From Allodiplogaster sudhausi (taxonomy: Eukaryota > Nematoda > Chromadorea > Rhabditida > Diplogasteridae): a DNA stretch of 64,000 nt. Of the stretch, positions 1 through 63,589 are shown one piece after another (position 1 is the stretch's first letter; each line of letters opens with the position of its first letter). Made by a program: the position numbers and the translations under genes. The stretch is taken from the NCBI GenBank assembly GCA_945643635.1, contig CALZFC010000029.1, positions 1,124,001 through 1,188,000 of the forward strand, read 5' to 3'. The notes beneath the pieces are model-generated. The model was not told where the DNA came from, made no database searches, and worked only from the letters and a program-made list of their open reading frames with translations.

Positions 1-1103
1 GTTACATACATACTTTTATTGAAAAGTTCGGATTTATACGGTAAATTTCGTTCTGTATGATAAGAAGGCCTAAAAAACTACTTCAGAAACGTTTCCACAT
101 GCCCAAACATACATCATAAGAAAGAGGATGAAATTTGGTAAAGATGAACCCCCTTTAAATGAAATTCTACGATCTTTTGTTATAAGCCATAAAAGAAGGA
201 TAACAAGGCCTTATGGAAATGGTGTAGAAAAAAAGGATTGGAATATTCTAATTCGAATAAACTAAACAATGAATACTTCGGCGAAATGACAGTGACGCTA
301 CTGGCCCTACTCTTATGGCTTATAACAAAAGATCGTACGCATGGAATTTCATTTAAAGGGGGTTCATCTTGTACCAAATTTCATCCTCTTTCTTTTGATG
401 TATGCTTGGGCTTGTGGAAACGTTTCTGAAGTAGTTTTTTTAAGCCATCTTATCATACAGAACGAAATTTACCATATAAGTCCAAACTTTTCAATAAAAG
501 TATGTATGTAACATTTGAAGATCTCCATGTGAGCTCTAAGGTGATATACTTACGATTTTGAAAGATTAAGATTGAGCGTAGTTATCGATTGAAGAATGCG
601 CTGTGTCTCGGCGATCGAAAATGCGCCATTTTGACCGACTCGCGCGCATTTTTCGCAAGGTGTGCCTACCGTTATGTTATTGACTGAAACGAATTCTTGT
701 AGCAAATTTAACGCGCTACAACATATCAAAAAACTGCAGGGTACTCTTTCCAAAAATGAACAGAAATTTGCCAAAAAGTGGTCAAAAAAATGTTCAGGGC
801 CGTGTTTTGGTCGAAAATAGATATTTTAGAAAATTTTACGTATGATCAGTTTGAAGAGCGTCCAACGGGCTATCGAACAGTATCTTTGATTTCGTCAAAT
901 TCGGAAAATTAGCCCAGTTATGGTTCATCATATTTTGAAGTGTACTGTACTGTTTCCCGAACGGAATTTTTCTTTAAAAAAATTAAAATGTTGTAGAGGA
1001 CGTCGAGTTGTATAGGTGAGCCAATTTTCATAAACGAAAGCGAAAAAAATTCCCCAGTGCAGCATCCAATAATGCCGTGCTCGAATCTTACGGAGAGGCT
1101 GTC
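1..1103. mobile_element. Palindromic TTAA element, left-truncated (member 1)
   Basis: The piece starts inside one arm and runs through a centre near 235 (containing GGAATATTC) to an end at 1103 next to TTAA (1104-1107). Its terminal motif, read inward, is GACAGCCTCTCC, nearly the same as the left end of the element at 60,581. Inner blocks around 60-130 and 340-470, and 590-680, recur in all other members of this family. No coding region is convincing. The left end lies outside the window. Confidence 0.8.
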
Positions 1104-1611
1104 TTAAATCCATTTTTATTTTTGTCTTGTACGTTTTTTGAGTAACTTTCTCTGCCATCCTACTTCAAGTTCATCTCTTTTTCTTAAATGGATATTTATA
1201 TCTTCTTACAGTATAACTCCATGCTTTTAAAAGAGTTCATTTCCTCTTTTTCGGATTTAGAGAATAATTTTTAATTTTGAATACGTGGATTTTCAGAATA
1301 TCAACTTCACACATATAGTAAATGCGTATTTAACGGCACTAAACTAGTAGACTGGCGAGGTTGTAACAATCAGAGCATCACGCACAGACTGGTTTTCTAG
1401 AAGAAGAGAGGCATTCGGAGAAAACGAGTAATTGTGAAAGCGAGAGAACTAATAAGAGTTAGAACTGGTGAAAAAATGAAATAAAATTGAGAAATGGCTG
1501 GGAAGAGCACACTATACATATATGTATGTAAATATGGCTCAGTTTGAAAAAGTAGATGTACCTTTGATCTGGAACCGTCCGTTAGCACCGATAGCAATGA
1601 AGCGAGCTCCG

Positions 1612-4279
1612 CTAGTACCTCGTATAGTGCTCGGGAAATCCGACAAGGTTCAAGCAACTAAAATCATGGATTTACCACAATGAAACAATGTATGTATGCA
1701 GCATTTTACCTATTTAAAAAGTTTATTTGTCAATGAATTTTACTTCTTCTCGTCCACTTTGATCTTTCAATTAGCCAAAAAAAGTCGAGAAAGCGATCGT
1801 ATCTTCTTCATATTTTTACAACTCCACTTTCATTCCGTATTATATTGATTGATCGATTGGTTAACAGTTTCCACTTCATAATATTTAAAAAAAAAAGAAG
1901 AAGAAATTGCTACTTACGCGCCGATAAAGTACTTCTCCGTGACGTACTTTCCCATCGCTGTTGGCAAAGTGCCGAAAAGTTTGATAGCCTCGTCAAAGTG
2001 GCCTTCCTGGAGGTATTAAGAGAGCCAATCTGAGAGACTCGAGCACGGGCATGTCGGGAACAAAATTATTTTTTTGATTTTCTTTTCCTTCTAAAGGCTT
2101 ATGAGGCATCCTAAAAAGACCTCAACAGCATTTTTTCCAAAAATTATTTTCTTCAGTTTACCATGGATATGCACCGAAAACCCGAAAAAACTAAAAAGAT
2201 CATAACTTTGTTCGTTGTTGAGATATATTAATTTTGAACTGTTTATTCAATTCCAAATTGAAAGGCGCACAAAAATTGTGATAATCACTTTTTAAAAATA
2301 TTTCATTAAATTCCTCATTTTGGCATTTTAATATTTCGAGTGGTGCGTTTGGGGCATAAAAACCCCCCATGTTAAAAAACTGAAGGCACCACGTGAAAGA
2401 GCGACCTTTTTTTACCCCTATTTAAATGCCTTTTACTAAAAAACTCCGATACACCTGTTTCAATATTTTGACATGAAACGCGCGAGTCGGTCAAAATGGT
2501 GCATTTTCGGCCGCCGAGGCACCGTGCAAGCGCATTCATCGATCCATAACTGCGCTGAATGTCAATATTACAAAATCGTCTGTATATCATCTAAGAGCTC
2601 TCACGGAGATCTTCAAATGGTAAATACATACTTTTATTAAAAAGTTATAATTTATATGGAAAATTTCGTTCTGTACAATTAGAAGGCTTAAAAAACTACT
2701 TCAAAAACATTTTCGCCTGTCGAAACATAAATCATAAGAAAGAGGATGAAATTTGCTACAAGATTAACCCCTTTCAATGGAATTCCATTCATATGATCTT
2801 TTGTTATAAGTCATAAAAGTAGTGCCAGTTGCGTCGCTGTCATTTTGCCCAAGAATTCATATTTTAGGTTAATCGAATTAGAATATTCCAAATTCAAATT
2901 AGAATCTTCCAATCCTCTTTCCTACAGTTTTTCCATAAGGCCTTGCTATCCTACTCTTATGGCTTATAACAAAAGATCGTATGCATGGGATTCCGTTGAA
3001 AGGGGTTCATCTTGTAGCAAATTTCATCCTCTTTCTTATGATGCATGTTTCGATAGGCGAAAATGTTTTTCAAGTAGTTTTTTAAGCCTTCTAATTGTAC
3101 AAATCGAAATTTCCCATATAAATTGAAAGTTTTCAATAAAAGTATGTATGTAACATTTGAAGATCTCCGTGAGAGCTCTTAGATGATATACTTACGATTT
3201 TGTAATATTGACATTGAGCGCAGTTATGGATCGATGAATGCGCTTGCACGGTGCCTCGGCGGCCGAAAAATGCACCATTTTGACAAACTCGCGCGCTTCA
3301 TGTCAAAATATTGAAACAGGTGTATCGGAGTTTTTTAGTAAAAGGCATTTAAATAGGGGTAAAAAAGGTCGCTCTTTCACGTGGTGCCTTCCGTTTTTTA
3401 ACATGGGCGGTTTTTATGCCCCAAACGCACCACTCGAAATATTAAAATGCCAAAATGAGGCATTTAATGAAATATTTTTAAAAAGTGATTAACACGATTT
3501 TTGTGCGCCTTTCAATTTGAGATTGAATAAACAGTTCAAAATTAATATATCTCAACAACGAACAAAGTTATGATCTTTTTAGTGTTTTCGGGTTTTCGGT
3601 GCATATCGATGGTAAACTGAAGAAAATAATTTTTGGAAAAAATGTTTTTGAGGTCTTTTTAGGATGCCTCATAAGCCTTTATAAGGATAAGAAAATCAAA
3701 AAATAATTTTGTACCCGACATGCCTTACATAGAGCCCTGGTCGAATCTCTCAGATTGGCTCTCTTAAAAAAAAGTCCACAATTTTGTTAGTCAATTTGTT
3801 TTATTCATCAATAATTAATTGCCTTTTTCACTAGACCTTATGCATAATATTATCGTATTACGATGGCACAAGATTACAAAAGAAAACAAAAGTATTTGTT
3901 GGAAGTGACAACATTGGCGAGTCGGATGGCCTTCATCATGAACTCTTTCGCCTTCGCGTCCTGCTCCTTGGACAGCTTTGGCATCAATTCGGCAGCGCAT
4001 GCTTCTGAGAGAAAGAAAACGAAGGAAAACAATCAATCGATATTTGTAATGATTAATTAGTGAAAGTGATTAAATATTGATCGAATGTCGATTTATTTTA
4101 TGATTGAACATCGATTAATTGTTTTTAAAGAAATATCGATCTATGTATTATTGATTGAGTATTATCGATACATATTTGGCTTGGTATCGATTGAATGATT
4201 AACCCTGATCGGCACTGAGTTTCGCGGTGGCGATGTCAGCAGCTGCGATGAGAAGGATGAAGATAAGATGACGTGGCAT
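1612..4279 (-). CDS. Small secreted helical protein, four exons
   Basis: Four minus-strand exons join in phase: 4279-4204, 4004-3913, 2006-1918 and 1657-1612, giving about 100 residues. Exon 1 begins with ATG and a classic signal peptide (MPRHLIFILLIAAADIATA). Exon 2 encodes a charged helix rich in Lys, Glu and Ala. Exon 3 contains GHFDEAIKLFG, which looks like a TPR-type or simple amphipathic helix, and ends in a perfect gtaagt donor. Exon 4 is a short tail ending in TAG. The donor of exon 2 (gttgtc) is weak, so that junction is the least certain; without it the frame would run on to a stop near 3870. The intron between exons 2 and 3 holds a 1.74-kb palindromic element ending only 9 bp from the acceptor. 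I do not recognise the family. A role outside the cell is inferred only from the signal peptide. Confidence 0.5.
2020..3763. mobile_element. Palindromic TTAA element (member 2), complete
   Basis: Flanked by TTAA at 2016-2019 and 3764-3767. Both ends read inward as GAGAGCCAATCTGAGAGA followed by a CTCGA/TTCGA motif. The two arms are about 850 bp, near-identical and inverted, with the centre near 2890 (AGAATATTCC-type core). The element lies in an intron of the small secreted-protein gene. It has no plausible transposase, so it must be non-autonomous. Confidence 0.9.
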
Positions 4280-5664: not shown

Positions 5665-6269
5665 GATTATATGCATGGAATTGCATGGGGTTCATCTTTT
5701 GAAGTAATTTTTAAGCCTTCTAATTGTAAATAACGAAATTTCAATTATAAATCCAAACTGTTAAATAAAAGTATGTGCAAAATTTGAAGTCCTCTGTGAG
5801 AGCTCTAAGATGAGATATACTTACGATTTTTTAATCTTTAGATTGAGCGTAGATATGTGGATCGATGAATGGTGCCTCGGCGGCCGAAAATGCGCCATTT
5901 TGACAGACTTGCACATTTTTCGCTAGATACCGTCAAAAATAGTAGGACTGCCTCTTTAGAATTTATAGACGTAACAAAAGATGGACCCCTCAAACATGTT
6001 TTTGCCAAAATGACCCTTATAATGAAGATTTCTGAAAAAAAAGTTTGGCAGGCATTTTGTGCTCCATCAGACGAGGAATCGCATAAATGTTTCAAAATTG
6101 AGATTGGTTACTATTAAACGGAGTAACACTTATTTGAATATTTTTTGTATATCAGAGTATACTGTAGACATACATGAGAATTTTTTCTCATGTATGTCTA
6201 GAGCAATTAGGAGCAAAACATACTTTTGTTCCCCGCCCCGCGATGGTTGAGTTTCACAGACAGGCTCTC
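5665..6269. mobile_element. Half copy of the palindromic TTAA element (member 3)
   Basis: Only one arm is present. It contains the usual blocks (AGAGCTCTAAGATGA.., the GGCGGCCGAAAATGCGCC box, TGTAGACATAC..) and ends at TTAA (6270-6273) with the inward motif GAGAGCCTGTCTGTGAAA. The partner arm is absent, so it is a deletion product. It lies beside the decayed CNG copy. Confidence 0.8.
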
Positions 6270-6427
6270 TTAAATGCAGTAAACGCACATATTTCGAGAT
6301 CTTAGACATTTCTGATAATTTTTGGAATTTTCTTCGCACAGCGTATTCTCAGTGGTCGAATTAGGTTACTGAATAGCGGAAATCGCACCAAAATATGTAT
6401 TCAGGGAGTTATTCCATTTCATATCAT

Positions 6428-8446: not shown

Positions 8447-8559
8447 CTGAAAACCTAGAGATGCACTCAACAGTCAGAGCTACTCGTCTTCATTAAGCGC
8501 TTAGAATGCTGACACGATTACCGCTGAACAATTTAAGCATTAACCTAATTATGCACATA

Positions 8560-30398: not shown

Positions 30399-30402
30399 TT
30401 AA

Positions 30403-32877
30403 GACAGGATGTCCATAGGACTCGATGACCTGCCCTTGGAATTTTTTTCGAATTTGTTCATGAAAATTGGTTACAGTATACAACTCGACGTGGCCAACAG
30501 AATAGGTTATATTTCAAACTTGAAAAAAATTTTCCGCGCGTGACCCGGTGCAGTAACGTTAACACTTTCACTTGTCATAACTCGCTTAAAACATATAGTT
30601 AGACAACCATCGAGGTATCATTGGATAGCTTTTTCAAGGGGCTTTAATGTTCGTGTTGATGATGTTTTCATAAAATTTCATTTTGGGCCTAAAATACGGC
30701 CCTAAGTATTTTCGAAGGCGGTTTTTGGCCAACTTAAGCATTTTATGCTCATTTCTGCAGAACGGTACATAAACTTAAAGTGCGTGAAATTTGCTACAAC
30801 ATATGTCTCTTTCAAAAGAAATAAACGTCTCGCTCTTACAAGGCAACCATCTAAGCATAAGGTGGCGGATTTTGATCGCACTTGTCTAGATCGATAGTCC
30901 AAGTGGAGAAATGATGATAACCATATTCATTTTTTCCTAAATGGCTTCCGGCGATTTTATATTGATTTTTAAAGTTTGCATTAAATCGCGGTATTTTGTG
31001 GCTTTACCACTGTCAATGTCTTTCTTAAGCAATTGAATAGGCCTGCGGGGCGCAGTGGGTTACGTGCTCGCTTATAATTTTGAACGTCACAGGTTCGAAC
31101 CACATTCGGTTGAAACGTTTTGCTACGGGTACCATTGTACCATTCCCACGCCAGAGGTCGAACTTCATAAAAAAAAATTTTCCTTGAAATTCATTCCACG
31201 GTGGTTTTCAGCATGGGAAAACGAATATCATACTCATTTCTTTTTCTGGCTTGGCTCAACCACCATCGCAAAGTGAGAATCTCACCTCTCTAACCTTGCC
31301 TAGCTAAAAATGAGCTCATGATAACAAATACACATGATATTCGTATTCCCCGTACCGAAAACCACCTTGGGGTGAATTTCAATTTAAAAGGTTTTTTGAA
31401 AAAAAAATTAGTTCGACTTTAGGGGTAGGAATAGTACAATTGTACCTCCTACAGTTGCGGAATTCAAGTTTGGAGAAGTACATACGAAAAAATTTTTCAG
31501 ATGAGAGGAAAGTTCGTATACACTTAAAATTTATGTAACAATAGCTTTCTACTTGTCTGTAAGGGCATAGGGTGTTGGAAGGTGTACCCTTCGCCCATTG
31601 TTGCGAAGCCATCCATAGTAGCCTATTACCCAAATGACCTGCCTCAATTTTCCCTCGTTAGGTTCCCAAACGCTTGAACATGATCCAGTGTAAACTGTAA
31701 CACCGTGCAAGCGCATTCTACGATCCATAACTGCGCTCAATGTCAATATTACAAAATCGTAAGTATATCATCTAAGAGCTCTCACGGAGATCTTCAAATG
31801 TTACATACATTATTTTATTGAAAAGTTTCAATTTATATGGGAAATTTCGTTATGTACTTAAAAAACTACTGTAAAAACATTTTCGCATGTCGAAAAATAC
31901 ATCATAAGAAAGACGATGATATTTGGTACAAGATGAACCCCTTTCAATGGAATTCCATGCATACGATCTTTTGTTATAAATCGTAAAAGTAGTGCCAGTA
32001 GCGTCGCTGTCATTTTGCCCAAGAATTCATATTTTAGGTTATTCGAATTAGAATATTCCAATCCTTTTTTTCTACAGTTTTTCCATAAGGCCTTGTTATC
32101 CTACTCTTATGGCATATAACAAAAGATCATATGCATGGAATTTCATTGAAAGGGGTTCATCTTTTAATAAATTTCATCCTCTTTCTTATGAGGTATGTTT
32201 CGACAGGCGAAAATGTTTAAGTAGTTTTTTAAACCTTCTAATTGTACATAACGAAATTTCCCATATAAATTGAAACTTTCAATAAAATAATGTATGGAAC
32301 ATTTGAAGATCTCCGTGAGTGCTCTTAGATGATGTACTTACGATTTTGTAATATTGAGCGTAGTTATGGATCGAAGAATGCGCTTGCACGGTGTTACAGT
32401 TTACACTGGATCGTGTTCAAGCGTTTGGGAACTTAAGGGGAGAGAGGTTTATTTCTTTGGAAAGAGACATATGTTGTAGCAAATTTCACGCACTTTAAGC
32501 ATATATAGGAGCAGTTCTGCAGAAATGAGCATAAAATACTTAAGTTGGCCAAAAACCGCCTTCGAAAATATTCAGACCCGTATTTTAGGGCCTAAATGAA
32601 ATTTTATGAAAACATCATCAACATAAAAAATAAAGCCCCTTAAAAAAGCTATCCAATGATACCTCGATGGTTGTATAACTATATGTTTTAAGCGAGTTAT
32701 GACAAGTGAAATTTTTAACATTACTGCATCGGGTCCCGCGCGGAAAATTTTTTTCAAGTTTGAAATATAGCCTATTTTGTTGGCCACGTCGAGTTGTATA
32801 CTGTAACCAATTTTCATGAACAAACTCGAAAAAAATTCCTAGAGCAGGCCTTGATCGAAGGATACTGACATGCTCTC
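30403..32877. mobile_element. Palindromic TTAA element (member 4) with an internal insertion
   Basis: Bordered by TTAA at 30,399-30,402 and 32,878-32,881, with ends GACAGGATGTCC and GAGAGCATGTCA read inward. The arms pair (30,403-30,839 with about 32,440-32,877; 31,662-32,040 with 32,050-32,430). The left arm is split by about 820 bp (30,840-31,657), bounded by TTAC and TTAG where the right arm has a single intact TTAA, so it looks like a second, older TTAA insertion. The insert carries a tRNA-like segment. No transposase. Confidence 0.85.
31044..31105 (+). repeat. tRNA-like (SINE-type) segment
   Basis: GGGGCGCAGTGGGTTACGTG resembles an A box, and CAGGTTCGAACC about 30 bp later is a perfect B box. 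The arms do not fold cleanly. It lies within the insert of the palindromic element at 30,403. Confidence 0.55.
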
Positions 32878-33141
32878 TTAAAGGAGCTGTCCATGGAGAT
32901 TACAATGTTGCAGAATTTTTTGTTAATACTATCCGGTCCAACTTTTTTTTAAATCATTAGGAAACGTGAGAATGCGTCCTGAAGGGGCCCTGAGGAGAAA
33001 AACCACATTTTCCCCACGTCGTACTGTAGAAATTAGAGTGACGTGCGAAGCGGCAAGCTACGCTTGAGATTCGAGGGAAGAGAAGAGAGACAGAGAGAAA
33101 AAGACTTACACAGTCTAGTTTGTAGTGATAGATACTGTGCT

Positions 33142-37139: not shown

Positions 37140-37191
<52 letters not shown>

Positions 37192-40100
37192 TCTTTGTGA
37201 CCACTTTTGTTGTCCTTGATTCGGGAAAGGGCGGGAATTCAAACATTGAATTTTCATCCGTACTTCAAAGAAAGGGCTCTCGAACTGAAGCAGCGCGAGC
37301 AGACGATTGCACACGAGCAGAATGCACGCGCAGCATGAGCACGTGTAGAAGCCTTGAAATTTATTCACTTAATTTTTTGTTAGGCTTTTATCTCCATGAC
37401 ACTGGGCGTGACGATTCCAGCGGAGATAAAAACAACAACAAACTACCATGAATGTCTAGAATAATTGACTATCACTACGAGAAGCTTAAAGGAGGTCCGA
37501 GGCGAATAAATAGTGTCTTGTTTTTTTCGCCTTTTTTGGTCGGGTTGTGCTAGAAACTTCGATTGCAAGTGTCCCGAAGTCACAAAAACCCTCATGCCCT
37601 GAGGAAATTAAGAGAGCCTGTCTGAGATATTCGACCACGGCCAGTGCAGAGGGTGGATGGGAACAAAAATATTTTTTGATTTTAATTTCCTTTTTAGGGC
37701 TTATGTAGCATCATGAGAGCTTCCAAAAAAACATTTTTTCAAAAATTATTTTGAAGGTATAACTACAGTATGCCTCGATTTATCGAAAATATTCGATTGA
37801 CCATAAAGTTAGTAAAAGTTAACTAAACAAAATTTTGAAAGTATCGTTATATTCGTTATCTAAAGGCGCACAAAAAAGCCATAGAAAGGATTTCATAAAA
37901 ATTTCATTAAAAAGTCGAAATGAGCACTTATATAATGGGAATGCGCCATTAGAGTGTGCTAGGCGGTAAAAACTGCGCGATGATACCATTTCCATTTGAT
38001 AGAGCGTCATTTATTACCTCCAGAAAACTGCCTCTCATGTGGATCCTCCTACGGTAACCTTACAATGTACGGGGTGAATACCTCGTAGAGTAATAACCCG
38101 CAGAACAAAAAAGGCTATAAAATGCGTTTTTCTCGCTCATTTCAGAAACCAAAGATACCATTGTGTTTATAATTTAGAAATGCATAAAAATGTCATACAT
38201 AATTTGTTCATACGATTACATTCTCAATCACTTTTTCGGCAAAAACTGTATTTCTGGCCTGCTGGAGAGAGGTTAGCGCATGTAGTCAGAAAACAAAGAA
38301 AGACTGCGCCTAAATACGTATGCCACGTGAAAGCCCAGTCTTTTCTACGTGTAATATACTATCTTCTTGCCGAATTCATGTACGGGAAAGTTTACATATG
38401 TATGCTTGAACCGCGCACTCACAGTGCGGCTTGCGCGGAAAATCCCCTTTAACCTAGCTATCTGGCTTCATTCGCGATATTGGTTGAAGTGGTTCATAGC
38501 ATCTTATTCACCACGTCCTGACACACAAAAAAGACGCCCTAGCTATTTTAAATTCTTAAATCTTCACTTTTATTTTCGTCAGAAACTCTTTTTGCTTCTA
38601 TGTGCAAGAGACAGAAATGTGGCTGTACTCAGAAAAATATGGAAGACTACACCTAAATAAGCATTCTGTATGAAAGCCAAGACTTTTTTGTGCAGAATAT
38701 ACTTCTTTACGATAGCCTGTCAGTTTCGCTACGAATCGAAAAGCAACACAAACTCGAGACAACACAATGGATATTCACCAATTCACCGCGTTCACCGCGA
38801 ATATTCACCGTGCAAATTGGAATATTCGAATGATGCTCAATTCGAATATTCCAATTCACGCGGTGAATTGGTGAATTTCCATTATATTTTCTCGAGTTTG
38901 TGTTGCTTTTCGATTCGTAGCGAAACTGACAGGCTGTCTTAAAGAAGTATATTCTGCACAAACAAGTCTGGGCTTTCACATAGAATGAAAGTGTATTCTT
39001 CCATATTTTCCTGACTACGGCCACTTTTCTGTCGCTTGCGCACAAAGGCAAAAAGGGCTTCTGCCGAAAATAATAGTAAAGGTCCAAGAATTTAAAAAGC
39101 TACAGCGTCTTTTTTTGTGTGTCAGGACGTGGTGAATAAGATGTTATGTACCACTTCAACCAATATCTCGAATGAAGCGAGATAGCTAGGTTAAAGGGTG
39201 ATTTTCCGCGCAAGCCGCACTGTGAGTGCGCGGTTCAAGCATACATATGTAAACTTTCCTGTAGATGAATTCGGCAAGAAGATAGTATATTACACGTAGA
39301 AAAGACTGGGCTTTCACGTGACATACGTATTTAGGCGCAGTCTTTCTTTGTTTTCTGACTACATGCGCTAACCTCTCTCCAGCAGGCCAGAAATATAGTT
39401 TTTGCCGAAAAAGTGATTGAGAATGTAATCGTATGAACAAATTAAGTATGATATTTTTATGCAATTCTAAATTATAAACACAATGGTATCTTTGGTTTCT
39501 GAAATGACCGAGAAAAACGCATTTTTTTCTTTGTTCTGCGGGTTATTACTCTACGAGGTGTTCACCCCCGTACATTGTAAGGTTCCCGTAGGAGGATCCA
39601 CATGAGAGGCAGTTTTCTAGGGGTAACAAATGACGCTCTATCAAATGGAAATGGTCTCATCGCGCAGTTTTTACTGTCTGGCACTCTAATGGCGCATTCA
39701 ATAATATAAGTGCTCATTTCGACCTTTTAATGAAACTTTTATGAAATCCTTTCTATGGCTTTTTTGTGCGCCTTTAGATAACGAATATAACGATACTTTC
39801 AAAATTTTGTTTAGTTAACTTTTACTAACTTTATGGTCAATCGAATATTTTCGATAAATCGATGCATACTGTAGTTATACCTTCAAAATAATTTTTGAAA
39901 AAATGTTTTTTTGGACGCTCTCATGATGCTACACAAGCCCTGCAAAGGAAATTAAAATCAAAAAAATTTTTTTGTCCTAATTTCCTTAATACAGCGTGTG
40001 TAGATCATAAATGGCTTATCAAAAACGTTTACAGAACATTTTTTTTCTCAAGTATGTCTACAGTATGCCCTGATAGACCAAAAATATTCAAATGAGCGTA

Positions 40101-43100
40101 ACTCTCTTCAATGGCGACCAATCTCAATTTTGAAACATTTGTTCGATTCCTTGTCTGATGGGGCAGAAAAAAGTCTCAAGTAACGTTTTTCTAAAATCTT
40201 TATTATAGGGGTAATTTTTGCGAAAATGTGTTTTGAGGGGCCCATTTCGGGCATAGTGTTCCTCATGTTAAAAAACGGAGTATACAACGAGAAAGAGCGT
40301 GGATTGCTACCTCTAAAACAATTGTTGTGAAAGTGGAACTCTTACTATTTTTTACGGTAGCACTCGAAAAATGCGCGCAAGTCGGTCAAAATGGCGCATT
40401 TCCGGCCTCCGAGGCAGCGTGGAAGCGCATTCATCGATCCATAACTACGCTCAATTTTAATATTACAAAATCGTTAGCTCTCACGGAGATCTTCAAATGT
40501 TACATACATACATTTATTGAAAAGTTAGAATTTATATGGGAAATTTCGTTCTGTACAATTATAAGGCTTAAAAAAACTACTTTAAAAACATTCGAAACAT
40601 ACATCATAAGAAAGAGGATGAAATTTGGTACAAGATGAACCCCTTTCAATGGAATTCCATGCACACGATCTTTTGTTATAAACCATAAGAGTAGGATAAC
40701 CACGCCTCACGGAAAAAGTGTAAAAAAAAGGATTGGAATATTCTAATTCGAATAACCTAAAATGCCAATTCTTGGGCGAAATTCTTGGGCGACGCTACTG
40801 GCACTACTTTTACAATTTATAACAAAAGATCGTATGTTTGGAATTCCATTGAAAGGGGTTCATCTTGTACCAAATTTCATCCTCTTTCTTATGATGTATG
40901 TTTCGACAGGCGAAAATGTTTTTAAATTAGTTTTTTAAGCCTTATAATTGAACAGAACGAAATTTCCCATATAAATTGAAACTTTTCAATAAAAGTATGT
41001 ATGTAACATTTGAAGATCTCCGTAAGAGCTCTTAAATGATATACTAACGATTTTGTAATATTAACATTGAGCGTAGTTATGGCTCGATGAATGCGCTTGC
41101 ACTATGCCTCGGAGGCCGAAAATGCGCCATTTTGACCGAATTGCGCGCATTTTTCGAGCGCTACCGTAAAAATAGTAAGAGTTCCACTTTCACAATAATT
41201 GTTGTAGAGGTAACAAAGCACGCTCTTTTACTAGGTGTTCTCCGTTTTTTAACATGGGGGGGTCCCGATGCCCGAAACGGACCCCTCAAAACACATTTTT
41301 GCCAAAATGACCCCTATAATGAAGATTATAGAAAAACGTTACTTAGAACTGTTTTATGCCCCATCGTACAAGGAATCGAACAAATGTTTCAAAATTGAGA
41401 TTGGTCGTCATTAACCGGAGTTACGCTCATTTGAATATTTTTGTTATATCAGGGTATACTGTAGACATACTTGAGAAAAAAATTTTTCTGACGACGGTTT
41501 TGGGAAGCCATTTAGGTAATGTACACGCTGTATTAAGGAAATTAGGATCAAAGTGTACTTTTGTTCCCTGTCCTCTTTAGCATGGGGAATGGTCGAGTCT
41601 CTCAGATTGGCTCTCTTAACACTGTTTTCTACTTTGAATTCCCAAATATTTATTTTCCCGCTATTTTCAAAAATTTTTGAAAGAGCAACGCTGTGACCGC
41701 TGGGGCCAACGAGTCATGTCGAGTAATTGCATATAAATGGTGCGCGCAACCAACATTGGCAGGGTTTTTCTTAACACGTAGCCTCACCTGGCAGTGGTGC
41801 AAACCACAAGTTTCTGGGGAGAGAGGCAAGGAGTTTGAATGTGCGCGCTCATAAAGTTGCATGTTGCTTGGTCGAGAGAGCATGTGAAATAGGAGGGCGG
41901 CTATGATCTGCCGTAGCTAATTCTCTACCCGCCAGTTTTCACGCTACTTTTGCTCAAAATTTAATTAACGAAAATCGTCTGGATATATGTTTCACGCCAA
42001 GATTAACTTATCCACATAGAACAAAACATAGGTTAATTATTCCCCGGATACCTCCTTTAATCCAATAACCAGGTACTTCTTACTCCCGCCTCTAACTAAC
42101 TCACCAAGACACCACGACCCGGTGATATGGCCGATGATCGGATTCAGGCAGTACGTCTGGCCGATCAAGAACATTGTTGCTTGAACTGGCGCCGCGTCGC
42201 AGAGGCCGATGATGTCGATGACGCCGAGATAGAACATGATCTTTAAAGGAGGGCGATCACCGAAAAGTCGTTCACGAGATATGAGACATTTTGCGTATTT
42301 TCGAATCGTTTTCAGCATATACATAAAAGATATGCACATGAAAGACCACAAAAGAGTTTCACATTCAAGTATATGCACTTGAAAGTGCAACTTTTGAATC
42401 AAATTCATATTGGTTTCTCAGTGAAAAAATGTGGTGTATACAGTAACTAGGGTAAATTTACCATAGCGGGAAGATAAAATTTACAAATACGTCGCGACTT
42501 TGACATTTCAGTGAGCTTAATAAAGTTTTTGTGTTAGTTTTTCTGTAAAAACTTTTAGCTAGAACAAAAAAAACATTAAAATAGTTAATCAGAATTATCA
42601 TCCCGCTTTGGAAAAAAAATGCGTTTGGCAACAAGTGTCACGCTCTTAGCGTACATTTTAGTTTGCTCCGATGGACTTCCATTCGAGATTTTTGCATGTT
42701 TGAACGCATATTAGTAAATTTTCGGTGATCGCCCTTCTTTAAGAGGAACCAAAAAATTCAATGTTTGAATTCGCGCCATTTCGAATGAATACATGCAAAA
42801 ACACACAACGATAAATTGAGGCATTCGATACGGCTTACAGTGAGCGATACTGTCGCATGCATACGCTTCGTATCACGGAAGTGCATGGTACAGAACATCG
42901 TCATTAAGAGGAGTCAAAACCCCATGTTTGAATTCGCGCCATTTCGTATGAATAAATGCAAAAATACACAAACCTTGTAGCACGGGAGCGCGCGATGCTC
43001 CCAGAGTGCGGGCATGCTAACGGCATACATGGGCAGGAAGATGACGCCGACGACATAGCAGAAGGCAGCGTAGAGCGGCTTCGACTCGCCACGCCATCCC

Positions 43101-44794: not shown

Positions 44795-44799
44795 TGGTC

Positions 44800-52428: not shown

Positions 52429-53109
52429 AACTTGAGGAATGTTCACTGATGTCGTCATTTTTTTTTCGCTGAAAAATCGTGGAGCGTCAAACGACGAAAC
52501 CGTAAGGCCTTATATACATGTTAGGATAACCGTAGGCATGACAATCTCGTGACAAATAGCAGGTATAAATTCTAATCTTTTGGTCAGCATCTACCAATCC
52601 TGTGTATGTATGCTTGTACATATGTATATAATATGTACCACGGAGATGGCGTGGGCCGATTATGGTCCAAATAAGAAATGCAAGCGCACAATCTTTAAGG
52701 CTTTGAAAGAACATGCAAAAGCGTAGAATGTGCTTTTATTTGTAGAGACAAATAAGGAACCAAAGGCCTGGCATGAAACATTAGCGCAAAAACGTAATGT
52801 ACAACAGTTCTTTTTTATAGCGTACATATGTATGTATATGGAAGTAGTGTTCAGTATTCAATATTCCGTACCCACCTCGAGTAAACGAGATGATTATAAG
52901 TGCACATGGCTTCAAGAAGAAAACAAATCTATATATTAAAAAGAAATTTGGCATTGGGGGCATATTTGTGCGGAAAAAATACAAACGCAGAATAAGTGCA
53001 AAGTCCAAAAAGAGAAGGAAAACACCAAAAATAAGGAAAAAGTCATTTGAAATCTCTGGGCCTGAACGGAGTTTTCAACAACAATTTCGTGTTGCCGTAA
53101 ATTAGCGAA

Positions 53110-55060
53110 ATTTTAATTAATGGTTGGCATGTCTCACAAAGGTCTGAAAACTTAGAAATCTTATGAAAAGCAAAAGAAAACATGTGGACATACATATGTA
53201 CATATACTAGTTACTAAACATGTATCATCGAAATAGCATATACATATGTATGTACATAGATATGTGTGTTCCTTTTTATAGCTGTGGCCTACATCTCTCT
53301 CTCAGTTTTTCTTCTCGCTCTTTTAATTTTATTGTTTCGCCCCCCACCATTTCGCTATCTTTACTTTATAGTCTCCTTATAATCTCCCTTGTAATAGACG
53401 CATTTGAATCTAGCAGTTCGAACCCTTGAATTTAGAATACAGAATTGCATGTATGAGCATTCAAGCATGGAGAAAAGAGAACAGAGCAGAAAGAAATTGC
53501 GACACTGCAATATGGAATTGAAATTAATGGTTGAACCGTGAACGTTCCAGCTGTTTATAATCATTTATTTCACTTGCCTTGTGGCATATAATCATGAGCT
53601 AACACGAAGAAATATTCTCTATCGTGCACGAAAAAGTAAATAAAGAGAATGAGATTGTGCATAATTATAGGCCAGAGAGCAAACTATCGGAGCAGCCACG
53701 AGTTACATAAAAGTTACTGAAAATGTGATCGAAACCACAATTGCAGCTATTGCATTAAAAAATAGCGCGAAAATTAGATTTATTTTCCAGCAGAATATGA
53801 AATGAGTGCGCGAGTGCTGATGTGAGGTGAATGCGATAGTTTGACTAGCTAATTGAAAATATTTCTTTTAACAAATATTGAAACTACAATAATCTCAAAG
53901 TCTAATGCAGTGATCACCTCTAGGCGATTCGTGCAGAAATTAGACACGGATAGCTCGCCAGTATACACTTGACGTGCTAACGGGTTATATCTAACCTTTT
54001 TGATAGAGTCTCGACGCCGGCTACAAGATGGACGAGGGCGGAGATAATATTGTACATAAATAACTTCATCAGTACTTGATACTACAAAATGATGTGAGGA
54101 AGGTGGGGAAGCTAAAAGTGGGTTGTAAGCATTAACTGCGTAATTCGTTAGAGAGCAGGCCGCATATTTATTCCCTTATTGTTAGCGGTTTTCTGTACGC
54201 AAGCGCCAATCTACTGCTCGATCTATGTATGTATGTACATATTCGTTGCGAGCAGTAATATTGGTAAATGACATTCCGCGGGAACTAGAGTAAAGGCTTG
54301 TAGATAATGTGCCGTAAAGAACGTTACTTCTATCAGAAAACATGTTCATGAGAGAACTTGCGCACTAAAAGGAGAGCACGCTCTTATGTTTTCGCTGGTG
54401 TTCTCCGGCGGGAAAAGAGAAGGTTTTTTTCTTATATGGAAAGAGAAAAAGACGAGAACCCGCGGAGCATGATGACCTTGCTCAATTTGGCATTGAATTA
54501 TTGGGTGGGAGACACAGAGGGATTATAAGAGAGCATATGATAATGAGAAAGCGATATGTAGATAGTGAGAGAGCGATAGATAATGAGAGAGCGAGAGAAA
54601 ATGAGAGCGAGAGATAATAAGAGAGCGAGAGAAGACGCAGACGGCGTGAAGCTTGTGAGGAGGAGGAGCACAATTCATGCCTTTCTTTATGGACCCAGCG
54701 ATCGTTGGATTGACAAAGGTGCGAATGCACCAGCCAATTGTTTGAAGGGACCCAACAACACCTTCAGACAATGGGAGAGGAGATTTTTCTGTTTGCCACA
54801 AACCTGGTAATTTTTATCGTACACTAACAAGAAATTTATCATTTTTTATACATATGTAATATCCATATTTGGCCTGGCGTTCTATATGACCTTACAGCTA
54901 GGTCCACTTGAGATTGCAATATGACATTAGCCAAATTTGTATTTCCGAGTAAGGTGTAACGAGGATAATGTATCGTGATCTTATAGCACAATTCATTTGT
55001 TGGTCTTTTTAAGTCAGGTCAGAGAGTGCATACGTGCCAGGCGCACGGGATGATTACTGG
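53110..55060. other. Noncoding part of unit B, left
   Basis: Homologous to 44,800-46,700 of unit A. No supported gene. ATACATATGTATGT runs and a GAGAGCGAGAGA tract at about 54,520-54,640 are present. Confidence 0.5.
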
Positions 55061-55065
55061 ATATA

Positions 55066-56535
55066 TGACGGGGCCAACTAAAAAAACGGTTGTTTTTGCG
55101 TTTTGTTTCATGAGATTTGTGCAGCGTTGGTAGAAAAGTTCATATACTAAACTGCATAATTTTTGAGCGTCTTTATACACGTACAAAAGTATGCGAAAAT
55201 CGAACTGAAAAATTAGCACAAATATTCATCTATAAAACTGCACAAAATAATTTTGAAAATTGGACAAGAGTATACGCGTACAAAACTGTTAATAAAATGG
55301 ACTGAAAAATGAGCAGAAATATATATGAACTAAAGTGCTCAAGAACTATACAGAAATGTGGGCACAAATATACGTGTACAAAATGGCGTAAAAAATTTGA
55401 GCAAGAAAATACGCGTACAAAACTGCAAAAAAAATTGAACACAAAAACACATGTACACATTGTTCAGAAATTAAATACAAATAGCAGAAATAACCTGTTA
55501 ATTACAAGAGCGTAAAATGCTCACGCGATTAAAAAACAATGAAGTATCTTACCTATATAGGAAAACTAGTAAATCTTCACTGAATAGGTTTAGAAAGCGA
55601 AAATCACAATATCGGTCGTGTTCAAACCTCCAGCAAACAGAATAACAACGTCATCACTACCCTACACTGGCAAAAATATATAAATTAAAACATTATGAAC
55701 GGAATATTACAAAAATATTCTGAAAACATAATATGGAAAAACGTTAGGATATCGAAACATGTTTTCGAAAACTGCCTCCTAGCCGAGTTGCGTGCAAATC
55801 ACGTTCTGTGCTCAAGTTTTTCGCGCGTTTGTGACGCGATTTGGTATGCGCAAACAGGAAGCTTTCGAAAACATGTTTTGACATTCTTATGCTTTTCCAT
55901 CTTATGTTTTCAAGATATTTTTGTACTATTCCGTTTCTAATGTTTTCATTTATATATGTTTTGTCATTGCAAGGTAGTCATGACGTTGTCATTCTGTTTA
56001 TTGGACGTTTGAACATGTCCGATATTGCGATTTTTACTTTCTAAACTTATTAAGTAAAGGTTTTGATGTTGTCCTAGATAGGTACTGTATTTAATTGTTT
56101 TTTAACGTATTAGCATTAATTTACTCTTGTAATTAAGAGGTTTTTCTGCTATTTGTATTTCATTTCTGACAATGAGCAGTTTTGTACATGTTTTTTTTCC
56201 GCTCACTTTTTTGAGCAGTTTTGTACGCGTATATTCATGCTCATTTTTCTTGATGAATTTGGAGCACCATAGTACATGTACTTCTCTGCCCATTTTTCTG
56301 CCTGATTCCTGTGCACATTTATACGCGTATCTACATGCTCTTTATAAAAAAATCATTTATGCGCACATTAGTACGTGTATATTTGTGTGTAACGTTTTTT
56401 GCACACCTTTGTACGTTAATAAAGATACTTGAAAAAATATGCAACCTAGTGCATGCACTTTTCTACATACACTGCACAAATCTCGCGAAACACGTCGAAA
56501 ACGCAAAAACGGCCGTTTTTTAGTTGGTTCCGTCA
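55066..56535. mobile_element. Foldback-like palindromic transposon, TA-flanked
   Basis: Ends TGACGGGGCCAACTAAAAAA and its near-complement (..TTTTTTAGTTGGTTCCGTCA), with TA at 55,064-55,065 and 56,536-56,537. The arms of about 700 bp contain degenerate tandem units of about 45 bp built around TATACGCGTACAAAACTG (55,185-55,460, inverted at 56,170-56,440). The centre is near 55,800. Unit A has the empty site near 46,727. Tandem subrepeats in the inverted arms are the hallmark of foldback (FB) elements. No transposase. Confidence 0.85.
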
Positions 56536-56539
56536 TACA

Positions 56540-58280
56540 TTATGCTGATACAAAAAAGACAGTAACTAATCAATATATTTTAACCCTAAGGCGTCGTGCA
56601 ATACCCATAACAATAAGTTGAAGTTTATGACAAATCACGGAGGCATGAAATTTATTCTGAATTTAAGAATTCAAATTGACACCGAATATTTCATTTGGAA
56701 ATGGCTCTGATTCGACTTCACCGATGTGTTTGAATGTTTCATATTCATATGTGGGCATTAATATACATTAATATGCATCGTGCAAAAGTCACGTATTAGT
56801 AACTGTCGCGGAAAAGGAAAGTAAAATACAGTTTCACATGTCACTGGGGAGTGGGCGTGGAATTGCTCAAATGAGATCACTCACATGGCATACGGATAAA
56901 AGCATGCGAGTGCATAAATATGTATGATAAATGTGATAATAAGAGTGTAATAAAAAACGTTCCAGACGTATGTAGAACAACATAAAATCTTACCATTAGA
57001 TACAGCATTCCTTTCATGTTTTTTCTGCATAAATATTAGGTATATGGTGCAGGACTACTGTATGTATAAAGAATAAGGACGGATATATTCGCATCAAGTC
57101 CAGAGATAATGCATCTTATTTGCAAGATATCTCTGAACTTGCATACTTATGTACATATGTATACATATAATGTCGCATGCTCTTGAGAGAGAAATATGAA
57201 TCATAAAAACGAATGGATATCCGTAGATTGCCGCTCTCAATTATTTCTGCAACGACTGAAAAACTAAATCTCCATACTTACACATATGACTGTGAAAAAA
57301 TCGAGAAAATTCTCGGTTGATAATTCTGTGCTACAACGTGACGGAAATTCTCATGTTTGAAGGCCAGAAAAAATGCATCATATTCACAAGATATGCACAT
57401 ATCTCTGGACTTCCACATATCTTATATCTTATATATTATGCATTTGATAATGAGAAACTTTCATTCATAAAATGGAATGGATAATCATGAAAATGTGCAC
57501 ATTCAATTGTTCATACAAGAAATAAAAGTTAACTCTCGCAGTGCGATGCTCGGTAAATTCTTTGCTACATAAGCTAATTTGATGACTTTTCTTTTGTTTC
57601 CTCTACGCTTCTAAACGGAGTCCAATTATAGAATGTTGTGATTACTGTAGCATCCAAGTCTATGCGAGTTAGCGGAAGTTTTGAGGGTGGCTTGCGTCAC
57701 TGGTTGAGACATTAATCGCTTCGCTGCACTCTTCTGAAAGAAAATAAATGTTGACTATGGTACTGCTGTAAAAGTTCAGTATGATTTTTTTTTCTGGGAG
57801 AGTATGTGTAACTAGGAATTGACATTAAGATCTGTAAAGCACACTTCAATTAGAGCAAAATGATCGGCATTTAAATGACGATAATAAAGATAAATTGATA
57901 GAGATCTGGAAACAATACAATCGCTTTGGATTTTTTGTAAATAGGGATACAACAGAATTAAAGCAAAAATTGATGACATTTAGGCAAAAAGAAAATGGAA
58001 TTGTAGCACGCAGAAGTGACAGCCGAATTTGATGTGACGCTTGATCGTTGAAGAGTTCGTACTTTGGCCGTCGTCTACGAGAGATGAGAGTGAACGGTCC
58101 AGAAAAGTTTTCTTGGTTTCTCCCTCCGAAGATAATGAGTGTGAATCCTTAAAGTTGATAAAAACGAGAGTGATAGAGAAAGATAGAGAGAGAGAAGGAG
58201 AAAGAGAGACTGAGAGAGAAGAGAGAGCGCGCATGCAGAGAAGCCAGATGGAATCATATGTATATGACGCGATTCAAAAT
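56540..58280. other. Noncoding part of unit B, right
   Basis: Homologous to 46,730-47,930. No supported gene. AT-rich with microsatellite runs and a GA tract near 58,180-58,230. Confidence 0.5.
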
Positions 58281-58383
58281 GTCTGGGGCCCTAGAAGAAT
58301 CATCATCTCCGATTTTGCTTAAAAGTTGTTTATTGGTTAATTCAGACCCGGAGAATCGATTGGGATAGGTCTTGAAGCTTTAA

Positions 58384-60106
58384 GAGAGCCTGTCTGAGAG
58401 ACTCGACCATCACGGGACAGGGAACAAAAGTACCCTTTGATCCTAATTTCCTTAATACAGCGTGTGTAGGACCTAAATGGCTTCCAAAAAACGTTTTCAG
58501 AAAAAACATTTTCTCAAGTATGTCTACAGTATACTCTGATATAACAAAAATATTCAAATGAGCGTAACTCCGTTTAACGACGACCAATCTCAATTTTGAA
58601 ACATTTGTTCGATTCCTTGTCTAATAGCGCACAAAACAGCCATAGAAACATTTATCTGAAATCTTCATTATAAGGGTCATTTTGGTAAAAATGTGTTTTG
58701 AAGGGTCCATTTCGGGCATCGGGACCCCCCATGTTAAAAAACGGAGTACACCACGTGAAAGAGCGTGGTTTGTTACCTCTAAAATAATTATTCTTAAAGT
58801 GAAAGTCCTACCTCGAAGGGACGGTAGGACGCGAAAAATGCGCGAGAGTAGGTCAAAATGGCGCATTTTCAGCCTCCGAGGTACCGTGCAAGCGCATTCA
58901 TCGATCCATAACTACGCTCAATGTTAATATTACAAACTCGTTAGCATATCATCTAAGAGCTCTCGCGGAGATCTTCAAATCTTACATACATAGTTTTATT
59001 TAAAAGTTTCGATTTATATGGGAAATTACGTTCTGTATAATTAGAAGGCTTAAAAAACTACTTCAAAAACATTTCCGCATGTCGAAACATACATCATAAG
59101 AAAGAGGATGAAATTTGGTACAAGATGAACCCCTTTCAATGAATTTCCAATTATAACATGTTTTATTATAAATCATAAAATGAGGGCCAGTTGAGTCACT
59201 GTCATTCCGCCCAAGAATTCACATTTTAGGTTATTCGAATTAGAATATTCCAATCCTTTTTTTCTACAGTTTTTCCATAAGGCCTTGTTATCCTAATCTT
59301 ATGGCTTATAACAAAAGATCATATTCATGGAATTTCATTGAAAGGGGTTCATCTTGTACCAAATTTCATCCTCGTTCTTATGATGTATGTTTGGACATGC
59401 GGAAATGTTTTTGAAGTAGTTTTTTAAGCCTTCTAATTATACAGAACGTAATTTCCCATATAAATCGAAACTTTTAAATAAAACTATGTATGTAAGATTT
59501 GAAGATCTCCGCGAGAGCTCTTAGATGATATGCTAACGAGTTTGTAATATTAACATTGAGCGTAATTATGGATCGATGAATGCGCTTGCACGGTACCTCG
59601 GAGGCTGAAAATGCGCCATTTTTACATACTCTCGCGCATTTTTCGCGTCCTACCGTACCTTCGAGGTAGGACTTTCACTTTAAGAATAATTATTTTAGAG
59701 GTAACAAACCACGCTCTTTCACGTGGTGTACTCCGTTTTTTAACATGGGGGGGGGTCCCGATGCCCGAAATGGACCCTTCAAAACACATTTTTGCCAAAA
59801 TGACCCTTATAATGAAGATTTCAGAAAAATATTTCTATGGCTGTTTTGTGCGCTATTAGAGAAGGAATCGAACAAATGTTTCAAAATTGAGATTGATCGC
59901 CATTGGACGGAGTTACGCTCATTTGAATATTTTTGGTCTATCCGGGCATACTGTAGACATACTTCAGAAAAATTTTTTTCTGAAAACGTTTTTGGGAAGC
60001 CATTTAGGTCCTACACACGCTGTATTAAGGAAATTAGGATCAAAGGGTACTTTTGTTCCCTGTCCTTTTACAATGGGGCATGGTCGAGCTTCTCTGATTG
60101 GCTCTC
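58384..60106. mobile_element. Palindromic TTAA element (member 6), nested
   Basis: TTAA at 58,380-58,383 and 60,107-60,110. Ends GAGAGCCTGTCTGAGAGA and GAGAGCCAATCAGAGAAG. Arms of about 850 bp, centre near 59,240 (GAATTAGAATATTCC). It interrupts the left arm of the outer palindrome. Closest relatives are members 2 and 5. Noncoding. Confidence 0.9.
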
Positions 60107-60580
60107 TTAAAATGTCGTTTTGAAAAGTTATGAAGACTTGAAATCCTGCGCATTTTTTTGAGGTGGTCGAGTAGGGCGCACGTTTATGAACATTACTCCT
60201 CGCCCAGTAAAGTAATAAGCGTGAAAATTTTAACATATATAAATAAGATATTGCTTAAATTAAAAGTCAAAACAGAATCTGAAAATTTTTCAATATTGAT
60301 TTTTTACGTGTTCTCAAATTCAATGCCGAATGAACGTGTTAGAATGCACAATCGGCGGACCATTTTGTATGCATCGCATAGAGCATAAAATTAGCTTACG
60401 TATGATGTATAGGATGTTCGATTTTGAGGAAGTCTTCGACTTGTTTATGCGAATATGCCATGCGCGACTGCGAAAACCAGCGCCAAATCGCGGCGCGACA
60501 CGATATTGGTCGAATTCGAATATTGATTTTCAATGAATCTAATGATATTTTGTTTTTCATATCCCTTTTTACTTTATTAA

Positions 60581-62271
60581 GACAGCCTCTCCATAAGACT
60601 CGAGCACGGCATTATTGGGTGCTGCCCTGGGGAATTTTTTTCAAGTTCATCTATGAAAATTGGCTCACCAATACAACTCGACGTCCTCTACAACATACCG
60701 TACATTTTAATTTTTTTAAGAAAAATTCCGTTCGAGAAACAGTACAGTACCCTTCAAAATATGATGAACCATAACTCGGCTAATTTTCCGAATTTGACGA
60801 ACACAAAGATACCGTTCGATAGCCTTTTGGACGCACTTTAATTTTGTTTTTTTTTGTTAATCGATTTTCGACCCAAAACACGGCCCTGAACATTCTTATG
60901 ACCATTTTTTGGCAAATTTTTGTTCATTTTTGGAAAGTGTACCCTGCAGTTTTTTGATATGTTGTAGCGGGTGAAATTTGCTACAAGTATTCATTTTCAT
61001 TACAAAAATTCCGATAGGCACACCTTGCGAAAAATGCGCGCGAGTCGGTCAAAATGGTGCATTTTCGGTCGCCGAGACACAGTGCAAGCGCATTCGTCGA
61101 TCCATAACTACGTTCAATCTTAATATTACAAAATCGGAAGTATATCATCTAAGAGCTCTCATGAAGATCTTCAAATGTTACATACATACTTTTATTGAAA
61201 AGTTTGGATTTATATGGGAAATTTCGTTATGTATAATAAGAAGGCTTAAAAAACTACTTCATAAACGTTTCCACATGCCGAATCATACATCAAAAGAAAG
61301 AGGATGAAATTTGGTACAAGATGAACCCCCTTTAAATGAAATTCTACGATCTTTTGTTATAAGCCATAAGAGTAGGACAACAAGGCCTTATGGAAAAACT
61401 GTAGAAAAAAAGGATTGGAATATTCTAATTCGAATAACCTAAAATGTGAATTCTTGGGCAAAATGACAGCGACGCTACTTTTATGATTTATAACAAAAGA
61501 TCGTATGCATGGATTTCCATTGAAAGGAGTTCATCCTGTAGCAAATTTCATCCTCTTTCTTATGATGTATGTTTCGACAGGCGAAAATGTTTTTAAAGTA
61601 GTTTTTTAAGACTTCTAATTGCACAGAACGAAATTTCCCATATAAATTGAAACTTTTCAATAAAAGTATGTATATAACATTTGAAGATCTCCATGAGAGC
61701 TCTTAGATGATATACTTACGATTTTGTAATATTAAGATTGAGAGTAGTTATGGATCGATGAATGCGCTTGCACTGTGTCTCGGCGACCGAAATGCACCAT
61801 TTTGACCGACTCGCGCGCATTTTTCACAAGGTGTGCCTATCGGAATTTTTGTAATGAAAATGAATTCTTGTAGCAAATTTCACCCGCTACAACATATCAA
61901 AAAACTGCAGGGTACACTTTCCGAAATGAACAAAAATTTGCCAAAAAGTGGTCATAAAAATGTTCAGGGCCGTGTTTTGGGTCGAAAATGTATTTTTTAG
62001 AAAATTCACCCAAGATCAAACTTGAAGTGCGTCCAACGGGCTATCGAATGGTATCTTTATTTTCGTCAAATTCTGAAAACTAGCCGAGTTATGATTCATC
62101 ATATTTTGAAGGGTACTGTACTGTCTCTCGAACGGAATTTTTCTGAAAAAAATTAAAATGTACGGTATGTTGTAGAGGACGTCGAGTTGTATAGGTGAGC
62201 CAATTTTCATAATCGAAATCGAAAAAAATTCCCCAGGGCAGGTCGTGCTCAAAGGTTACAGACATGCTGTC
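60581..62271. mobile_element. Palindromic TTAA element (member 7), nested
   Basis: TTAA at 60,577-60,580 and 62,272-62,275. Ends GACAGCCTCTCCATAAGA and GACAGCATGTCTGTAA. Centre near 61,440. Arm sequence matches the truncated member at 1-1103 closely. Its right TTAA is also the left TTAA of the next element. Confidence 0.9.
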
Positions 62272-62275
62272 TTAA

Positions 62276-62795
62276 GACAATTAAGCTCATTTTTGAACAA
62301 AAAAATACACTTTTCAGCCAAATATTAACGAATTCACTCATCTCCACAAAAAGTGACCTAGTTGTCGCGAAAGAATGTTAAATTTGCTGGAAAACAACAT
62401 TCTTAAAACGAAAATTAAAGGTAGCTCTTTTTCGCTACAAATCAAAAAGCGACTCAAACCAGATACAACACTATGTATATACACCAATTCACCAGGTTCA
62501 CCACGGATTTCAGTTGGAATATTCCAATTTTACAGTTGGAATATTCCAATTCACACCATGAAAATCGGTAGTGAATGTGGTGAATTGGTGTATATACATA
62601 GTGTTGTATCTGGTTTGAGTCGCTTTTTGATTTGTAGCGAAAAAGAGCTACCTTTAATTTTCGTTTTAAGAATGTTGTTTTCTAGCAAATTTAACATTCT
62701 TTCGCGACAACTAGGTCACTTTTTGTGGAGATGAGTGAATTCGTTAATATTTGGCTGAAAAGTGTATTTCTTGTTCAAAAATGAGCTTAATTGTC
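62276..62795. mobile_element. 520-bp TTAA palindrome at the centre of the outer palindrome
   Basis: Ends GACAATTAAGCTCATTTTTG and its exact complement, with TTAA at 62,272-62,275 and 62,796-62,799. Arms pair to a centre near 62,530 (GGAATATTCCAATT). It sits where the outer palindrome's own centre would be TTTATTAATAAA. Confidence 0.88.
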
Positions 62796-63589
62796 TTAAT
62801 AAAGTAAAAAAGAGATATGAAAAACAAAATATCATTAGATGCATGGAAAATAAGTATTCGAATTCGACCAATATCGTGTCGCGCCGTGATTCAGCGCTGG
62901 TTTTCGCAGTCGCGCCGCGATTCGACGCTGGTTTTCGCAGTCGCGCATGGCATATTCGCATAAACAAGTCGAAGACTTCCTCGAAATCGAACATCCTATA
63001 CTTCATAAAAGCTAATTTTATGCTCTATGCGATGCATACAAAATGGTCCGCCGATTTTGCATTCTAACACGTTCATTCGGCATTGAATTTGAGAACACGT
63101 AAAAAATCGATATTGAAAAATTTTCAAATTATGTTTTGACATTTAGTTTAAGCACTATTTTATTTATCTATGTTAAAATTTTCACGCTTATTACTTTACT
63201 GGGCGAGGAGTAATGTTCATAAACGTGCGCCCTACTCGACCACCTCAAAAAAATGCGCAGTTTTTCAACTCCTTATAACTTTTTAAAACGACATTCTTAG
63301 GCTCCAAGACCCATCCCAATCGATTCTCCGGGTCTGAATTAACCAATAAACAACTTTTAAGCAAAATCGGAGATGATGATTTTTCTAGGGCCCCAGCCCT
63401 AATACCAAATTTCGATTCTCTCCCAAATCGTGTCATATGCATTTGTATCCCAATTTTGCTCGGAGCAGCAAAGAACACCGATCGACCAAAAACGGCAGAA
63501 CTTGCCATGCTGGAAGACGAAAGTTACTTTTGAACAGATGGTTACAAAGACGAATGGAGAAATTTCAAGAAGATAAGGTGTTTAAAAGT

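Follow-up and report, generated by a model that had tools for sequence, protein, structure and literature searches.

In a 64,000-nucleotide stretch of the Allodiplogaster sudhausi genome (contig CALZFC010000029.1, positions 1,124,001-1,188,000; below, the window), a palindrome termed H carries two other palindromes, A2 and B1, within its left arm. The nest is formed by one host with two guests, not by three successive layers. It is very probably an ordinary nested stack, in which two TTAA-specific palindromic elements with GA(G/C)AGC ends have inserted into a host palindrome unrelated to them, and it is possibly made of non-autonomous palindromic miniature inverted-repeat transposable elements (MITEs) of Kolobok type. 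The features read directly comprise element ends, TTAA duplications, restored host pairing, un-nested copies of B1 and of related types, and uninterrupted hosts. Palindromic DNA transposons devoid of coding sequence are abundant in this genome of 352 Mb and 382 contigs.

Host palindrome H and its two guests

The nest is composed of the following parts, on the + strand except for the last, to which no strand is assigned:

58262..58379, +: host H, outermost left arm from the end motif ATATGACGCGATT; pairs with 63301-63438, and other copies of H have the same ends
58380..60110, +: guest A2, a palindromic non-autonomous element of 1731 bp with TTAAGAGAGCC ends; TTAA at 58380-58383 and 60107-60110; its removal restores H pairing
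60111..60576, +: host H, left arm continued; pairs with 62800-63300
60577..62275, +: guest B1, a palindromic non-autonomous element of 1699 bp with TTAAGACAGC ends; TTAA on both sides; a core of about 700 bp in common with A2
62276..63438, +: host H, centre and right arm, recognized by restored pairing and by copies elsewhere in the genome
62272..62799: central part of H, described earlier as a 520-bp palindrome; pairing is continuous and homology to another palindrome family, X, passes its edges

Judged by its end motif, H extends from about 58262 to 63438. When both guests are cut out and one TTAA is kept for each, a 1692-bp H remains (58283-63396 less the guests), the arms of which pair throughout with 34 mismatches in 794 pairs, the innermost 40 bases excluded. 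An earlier note on this DNA had described an outer palindrome interrupted by guests of 1.72 and 1.69 kb, the deletion of which restores the pairing of the host arms, and both statements hold. H occurs in multiple copies and has ends of its own, which are non-TTAA. A genome search with its centre yielded 24 non-self H loci (compared through plus-strand matches of at least 70 bases). In 19 of them the alignment passes both target positions without interruption, and in 17 of the 19 a TTAA stands at the B1 target. In this and the other genome searches, 40 candidates were scored per search, out of 1577 (with the B1 core as query), 211, 193 and 431. Un-nested layers, which the earlier note had proposed to look for, were thus found in part, namely the B1 type, the A-type palindrome A1, the B-related palindrome E6 and the uninterrupted hosts (19 of 24); a complete copy of the A2 subtype was not among the loci fetched. 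The un-nested B1 copy (L002) lies at a Kimura two-parameter (K2P) distance of 0.030 from B1 over 1683 bp. Neither guest contains an open reading frame (ORF) of at least 150 amino acids, and two ORFs tested there gave no Pfam hit.

The sequence of events would be that H came first and was multi-copy, and that A2 and B1 were later inserted by cut-and-paste at two TTAA sites of the left arm, duplicating TTAA each time. Their transposase would have been supplied from elsewhere, most likely by an element of Kolobok type, as the TTAA duplication and the purine-purine start suggest. Misreading of hairpins during assembly can create inverted copies, and nothing beyond the palindromic shape speaks for such an artefact, which is highly improbable: the arms differ by 4-10% (K2P), the centres of A2 and B1 are asymmetric over about 100 bp, and the families recur on many contigs.

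The third layer of the earlier note, the 520-bp palindrome placed at a TTAA in the centre, is no insertion of its own. The pairs of H run unbroken through its edges at 62272-62799, which speaks against a separate TTAA insertion. The centre common to H and family X reaches some 40 bp past the TTAAs of the 520-bp segment, and the TTAA of X lies three bases away. At one X locus (L057) the H-X similarity seemed to end at the TTAA, the best scores outside it being 15-24 against null maxima of 21-30; in two of the eight comparisons the null was narrowly exceeded. A TTAA-bounded module, favoured at first on the strength of this locus, was overturned by the extended homology of five further X loci, four of them aligned. 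A good palindrome tends to mirror the TTAAs of its arms (10 mirrored pairs in the empty H), so that TTAA-bounded sub-palindromes arise automatically. The 520-bp layer belongs to H, and the guests were not aimed at the centre of a palindrome. TTAA density in H is 1.7 times that of the window; as arms like these are rich in TTAA and such sites tend to be mirrored, the nest takes on the look of stacked dolls. The stack is a warning that both TTAA-bounded sub-palindromes and arm divergence can mislead on layers and ages.

Ends, copies and affinities of the TTAA family

A TTAA-free scan of the window with two end sequences gives 16 sites that match at 17 or more of 26 positions; all 11 sites scoring at least 18 are preceded by TTAA, against one of five at score 17. 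In the genome, a search with the core of B1 (core1) returned 1577 candidates, from the 40 scored of which 29 non-self loci were fetched. The element ends read at these loci begin with TTAA in 54 of 54 cases (one of them reads TTAAAAGAG), a count biased by queries that themselves began with TTAA; the right end was unread in four loci, and three pairs of loci share flanks and are not independent (L012/L013, L020/L021 and L024/L025). Termini of the form GA..TC are found at the window ends of A, B and E6 elements and at 53 of the 54 genome ends, the remaining end starting with AA, also two purines. The termini are GAGAGC, GACAGC and close variants, GAG being the A-type and GAC the B-type start. 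An inverted self-match of 1.6-1.8 kb, with arms of A1, B1 or E6 type, is present at 23 of the 29 loci (matches of at least 60 bases outside core1), and at one of them (L027) the core1 element is itself nested inside an X element. The A/B/E6 group thus represents real transposon families. Nearly full-length inverted arms, terminal repeats, TTAA duplication, multiple copies and lack of coding sequence are all found, as in palindromic MITEs. Phage, plasmid, viral and prokaryote contigs were also searched and gave no match to these elements.

Besides A2 and B1, the window holds further members of the group (no strand is assigned):

1..1107: B-type element cut by the window start, with right end TTAAGACAGCC, from the end scan
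2016..3767: A1, an A-type palindrome that is complete, un-nested and bordered by TTAA at either end
5697..6273: truncated right half of an A-type element with a TTAAGAGAGCC end, from the end scan and arm comparison
30399..32881: E6, a B-related palindrome with core1, the left arm of which is cut by an 819-bp insert (30839-31657) flanked by TTA
39971..41619: A-type element fused to the palindrome A' described below, its left terminal stretch missing, from arm comparison

Motifs resembling the A and B boxes of tRNA genes can be seen by eye in the insert of E6, which was called neither by ARAGORN nor by Rfam. A second TTAA family, with AGGAG ends (TTAAAGGAGGTATCC and variants), has several copies in the window, e.g. 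32878-33707, and resembles the T2-MITE/Kolobok signature.

With respect to superfamily, the earlier note had proposed a non-autonomous family that targets TTAA and has ends unlike the CCC..GGG of piggyBac, and the 54 genome ends bear this out. PiggyBac elements have C-rich ends; the TTAA duplication is common to these elements and piggyBac MITEs, but the ends found here are not C-rich. Kolobok elements combine a TTAA target duplication with 5'-RR..YY-3' termini and are contrasted with piggyBac in the consulted part of PMC9587614; the A/B elements have both the duplication and the 5'-RR and YY-3' termini. The Kolobok-type T2-MITE of Xenopus shares with them the TTAA duplication, an inverted repeat starting with two purines and the non-autonomous condition (parts of PMC9587614 and PMC6004289). 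Its ends, though, read AGGRR, whereas the GAGAGC/GACAGC ends of A and B contain no AGG, and the A/B elements differ from it in being nearly full-length palindromes with exchanged cores. An AGGRR-like end, as in T2-MITE, belongs instead to the separate element at 32878-33707 (TTAA followed by AGGAG). In Caenorhabditis, the name PALTTAA denotes palindromic repeats at TTAA. PALTTAA2/PiggyBac is listed among domains common to two species, in the context of mosaic repeat families, in the portion of PMC1431705 consulted; that portion does not report the exchange of arms and cores seen here, and the likeness is one of description.

Chance, target preference and relative age

According to the earlier note, the family repeatedly targets TTAA inside its own relatives, perhaps at palindrome centres in particular. 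The host does not look like such a relative: its ends are non-TTAA, and a comparison of its arms with those of A and B at E 0.001 gave no match, the sole match found being one of 39 bp that joins the centres of H and A1. As to preference, 21 of the 338 window TTAAs outside A/B elements lie within H, which gives P = 0.066 for at least two of seven insertions landing there, and about 3.4 such nestings are expected genome-wide by chance, in a rough count that uses unscored candidates. No targeting preference is needed, and chance nesting may suffice. A TTAA transposase that prefers palindromes or their centres (cruciform tips), on which relatives pile up, is an unlikely alternative to ordinary nesting. 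It would account for the element M, which has ends of the family type and sits exactly on the dyad of A' (see below), for an insertion of E6 type that lies, within a palindrome of family X, about 3 bp from the mirror position of the B1 site in H, and for abutting elements that have their edge TTAA in common, observed in the window (32878-32881, between E6 and the AGGAG-ended element) and at L024, L025 and L064. On the other hand, A2 and B1 both lie off the dyad, in one arm of H, and the P value of 0.066 was obtained without any preference. Moreover, the 19 unbroken H loci are free of guests and the five broken ones showed no full A/B element within H, with some 3.4 chance nestings expected. 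The case of M, a TTAA-ended relative, is in partial favour of the proposed choice of centres; the two guests of H speak against it.

Several points weigh against ordinary nesting in H. The target duplication of H itself could not be read from the copies compared. In several other H copies the TTAA of the A2 target is displaced by one base, as read from context strings alone, and five of the 24 H loci (L037, L041, L046, L054 and L055) are broken on the left, for causes partly examined; at L041 a core1-like fragment (67-71%) adjoins the break. A complete un-nested copy of A2's own subtype is absent among the loci fetched, A2-like arms being known from just two places, a single side of L006 and the left-truncated element 39971-41619. 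Two insertions in a single H copy are somewhat unlikely (P = 0.066), and a mild preference may exist. No transposase of the A/B family was seen, no protein search for an autonomous copy having been made, and Pfam searches of 14 window ORFs gave no transposase domain among their hits, so that the superfamily is unproven. Sola3 elements also have a TTAA duplication, with GAG termini, and may be an alternative superfamily.

The divergence between the arms of each element, which the earlier note had suggested as a measure of layer age, is no clock for the layers. It places them in the wrong order, with the host lowest (K2P of 0.044 for H, 0.069 for A2 and 0.094 for B1), and B1 is only 0.030 from L002. 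Between B1 and L002 the left arms are 96.0% and the right arms 98.2% alike, whereas the two arms of B1 itself are 90.9% alike; same-side arms being closer than B1's own, the differences between arms are inherited. H lies at K2P 0.078-0.094 from the four H copies compared, and with the closest of these at 0.078, against 0.030 between B1 and L002, H is older than the insertion of B1. At L009 the arms of one element are 98.5% alike, yet the element is 89-93.5% like its relatives, which suggests that arms are sometimes, and episodically, remade or homogenized.

Shared centres and exchanged arms

The elements of the window are mosaics of arms and centres. Core1 is 83-93% alike in A, B and E6 (72-75% in the truncated A5), while the likeness of the outer arms is 39-61% from one subfamily to another and 74-87% inside a subfamily. 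Individual genome copies combine arms of different types: in L006 the left arm is of A2 type and the right arm, which lacks its last 79 bases, of B1 type, and L016 has an A1-type left arm, then the core, then an E6-type arm. The features that bear on the centres are:

37608..39970: A', a palindrome with A-type ends around another kind of centre; where it joins the following A element, its terminal stretch on the right is gone
38707..38942: M, an element of 236 bp at the exact dyad of A', with right end TTAAGACAGCCTGTC and a degenerate left end (TTAC)
62415..62657: the centre of H; it is a homologue of the A' central element, with agreement at 177 of 230 aligned bases

The ends of A' are A-type (65-69% over about 300 bp). 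Its centre is homologous to that of H, while outside M the arms of the two are unrelated (score 20, null maximum 27). M occurs in four further genome copies, with TTAA at eight of eight ends; five of these ends read TTAAGACAGCCTGTC and three differ from it by one base. Under the Repbase rule, which considers 11 terminal positions and allows one mismatch (in the part of PMC4455052 at hand), the M end TTAAGACAGCCTGTC matches the A end GAGAGCCTGTC. Exact strand matches to GGAATATTC in the 64 kb are found at palindrome centres in 12 of 12 cases (core1, A' and H elements), where 0.9 matches are expected. A deep homology of M and core1 centres was considered and dropped, as the M-core1 alignments are not clearly above shuffles.

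Such a mosaic could come either from conversion between elements through their shared cores, or from fold-back copying around an inserted palindrome. The latter process, a bold and unproven extension that we infer from these elements, would begin with a broken strand that folds back on a palindrome inserted at TTAA and copies one flank across to the opposite side, leaving the insert as the dyad of a new and longer palindrome with new arms; that it took place is possible but doubtful. Both flanks of M in A' read ACTTCT up to the TTAA, and without M the arms of A' would meet on a single TTAA with no spacer. The homologous centres and unrelated arms of A' and H, as well as the arms of L009, are also in agreement with it. 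Against it, M was not found in a non-mirrored flank among the loci examined, and the A'-H/X homology ends on the inner side of the TTAA, by as much as 18 bp, though the alignment with the H of the window starts at the TTAA. The 520-bp segment, a case of similar appearance, failed, and gene conversion between elements could yield the same mosaic. One listed H locus (C1:698554-699973) is without a centre, but 32 and 75 arm bases are gone with it, and it is read as a deletion. Finally, with M removed, 17 central bases of A' and 30 of H are counted as unpaired, one of the A' bases being an offset of the cut and the rest self-complementary. A more general proposal, slightly more doubtful again, is that palindromic MITEs act as seeds of new families, by insertion at TTAA, fold-back copying of one flank, a new place as the dyad of a longer palindrome whose ends match, and amplification of the product. 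If true, it would explain the common centre and different arms of A', H and X, and likewise core1 in A, B and E6.

Exchange of this kind is already known from Galileo of Drosophila, in which chimeric copies carry the arms of one subfamily around the centre of another through ectopic recombination and conversion (PMC3573991, consulted in part). Long inverted arms and foreign centres are common to Galileo and the present elements. Unlike Galileo, they have a TTAA duplication and an element with family ends at a dyad. The internally repetitive arms and 7-10 bp duplications of Galileo-like foldback elements are not seen here: the duplication is TTAA and arrays are scarce, a tandem-repeat scan giving a single short array, at 62878-62946 in H, and no array in either guest. 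Among the titles and abstracts found in a literature search, none describes an element with TTAA ends that lies at another palindrome's dyad, which speaks weakly for novelty. The mosaic of unrelated arms around common centres, together with the TTAA-ended element at a dyad, offers a test bed for the birth of palindromic transposons.

Some other arrangements of palindromes were observed. From 37608 to 41619, two A-type elements stand head to tail and lack about 120 bp of the ends that face each other, as if lost as a hairpin. The segment L064:3955-6593 resembles a palindrome of A1 type whose centre is occupied by half an E6-type element, the latter abutting an A-type end at a shared TTAA. Three further palindromes of the window (55061-56540, 8549-9051 and 9336-10924) show no TTAA at the ends located, and their arms do not match those of A, B, E6 or H. 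An ORF at 42040-42417 on the minus strand has a weak match, below cut-off, to a chemoreceptor model (Srt). The window also contains a diverged large tandem duplication (34974-46296 and 48343-54794), with 66-87% identity in pieces.

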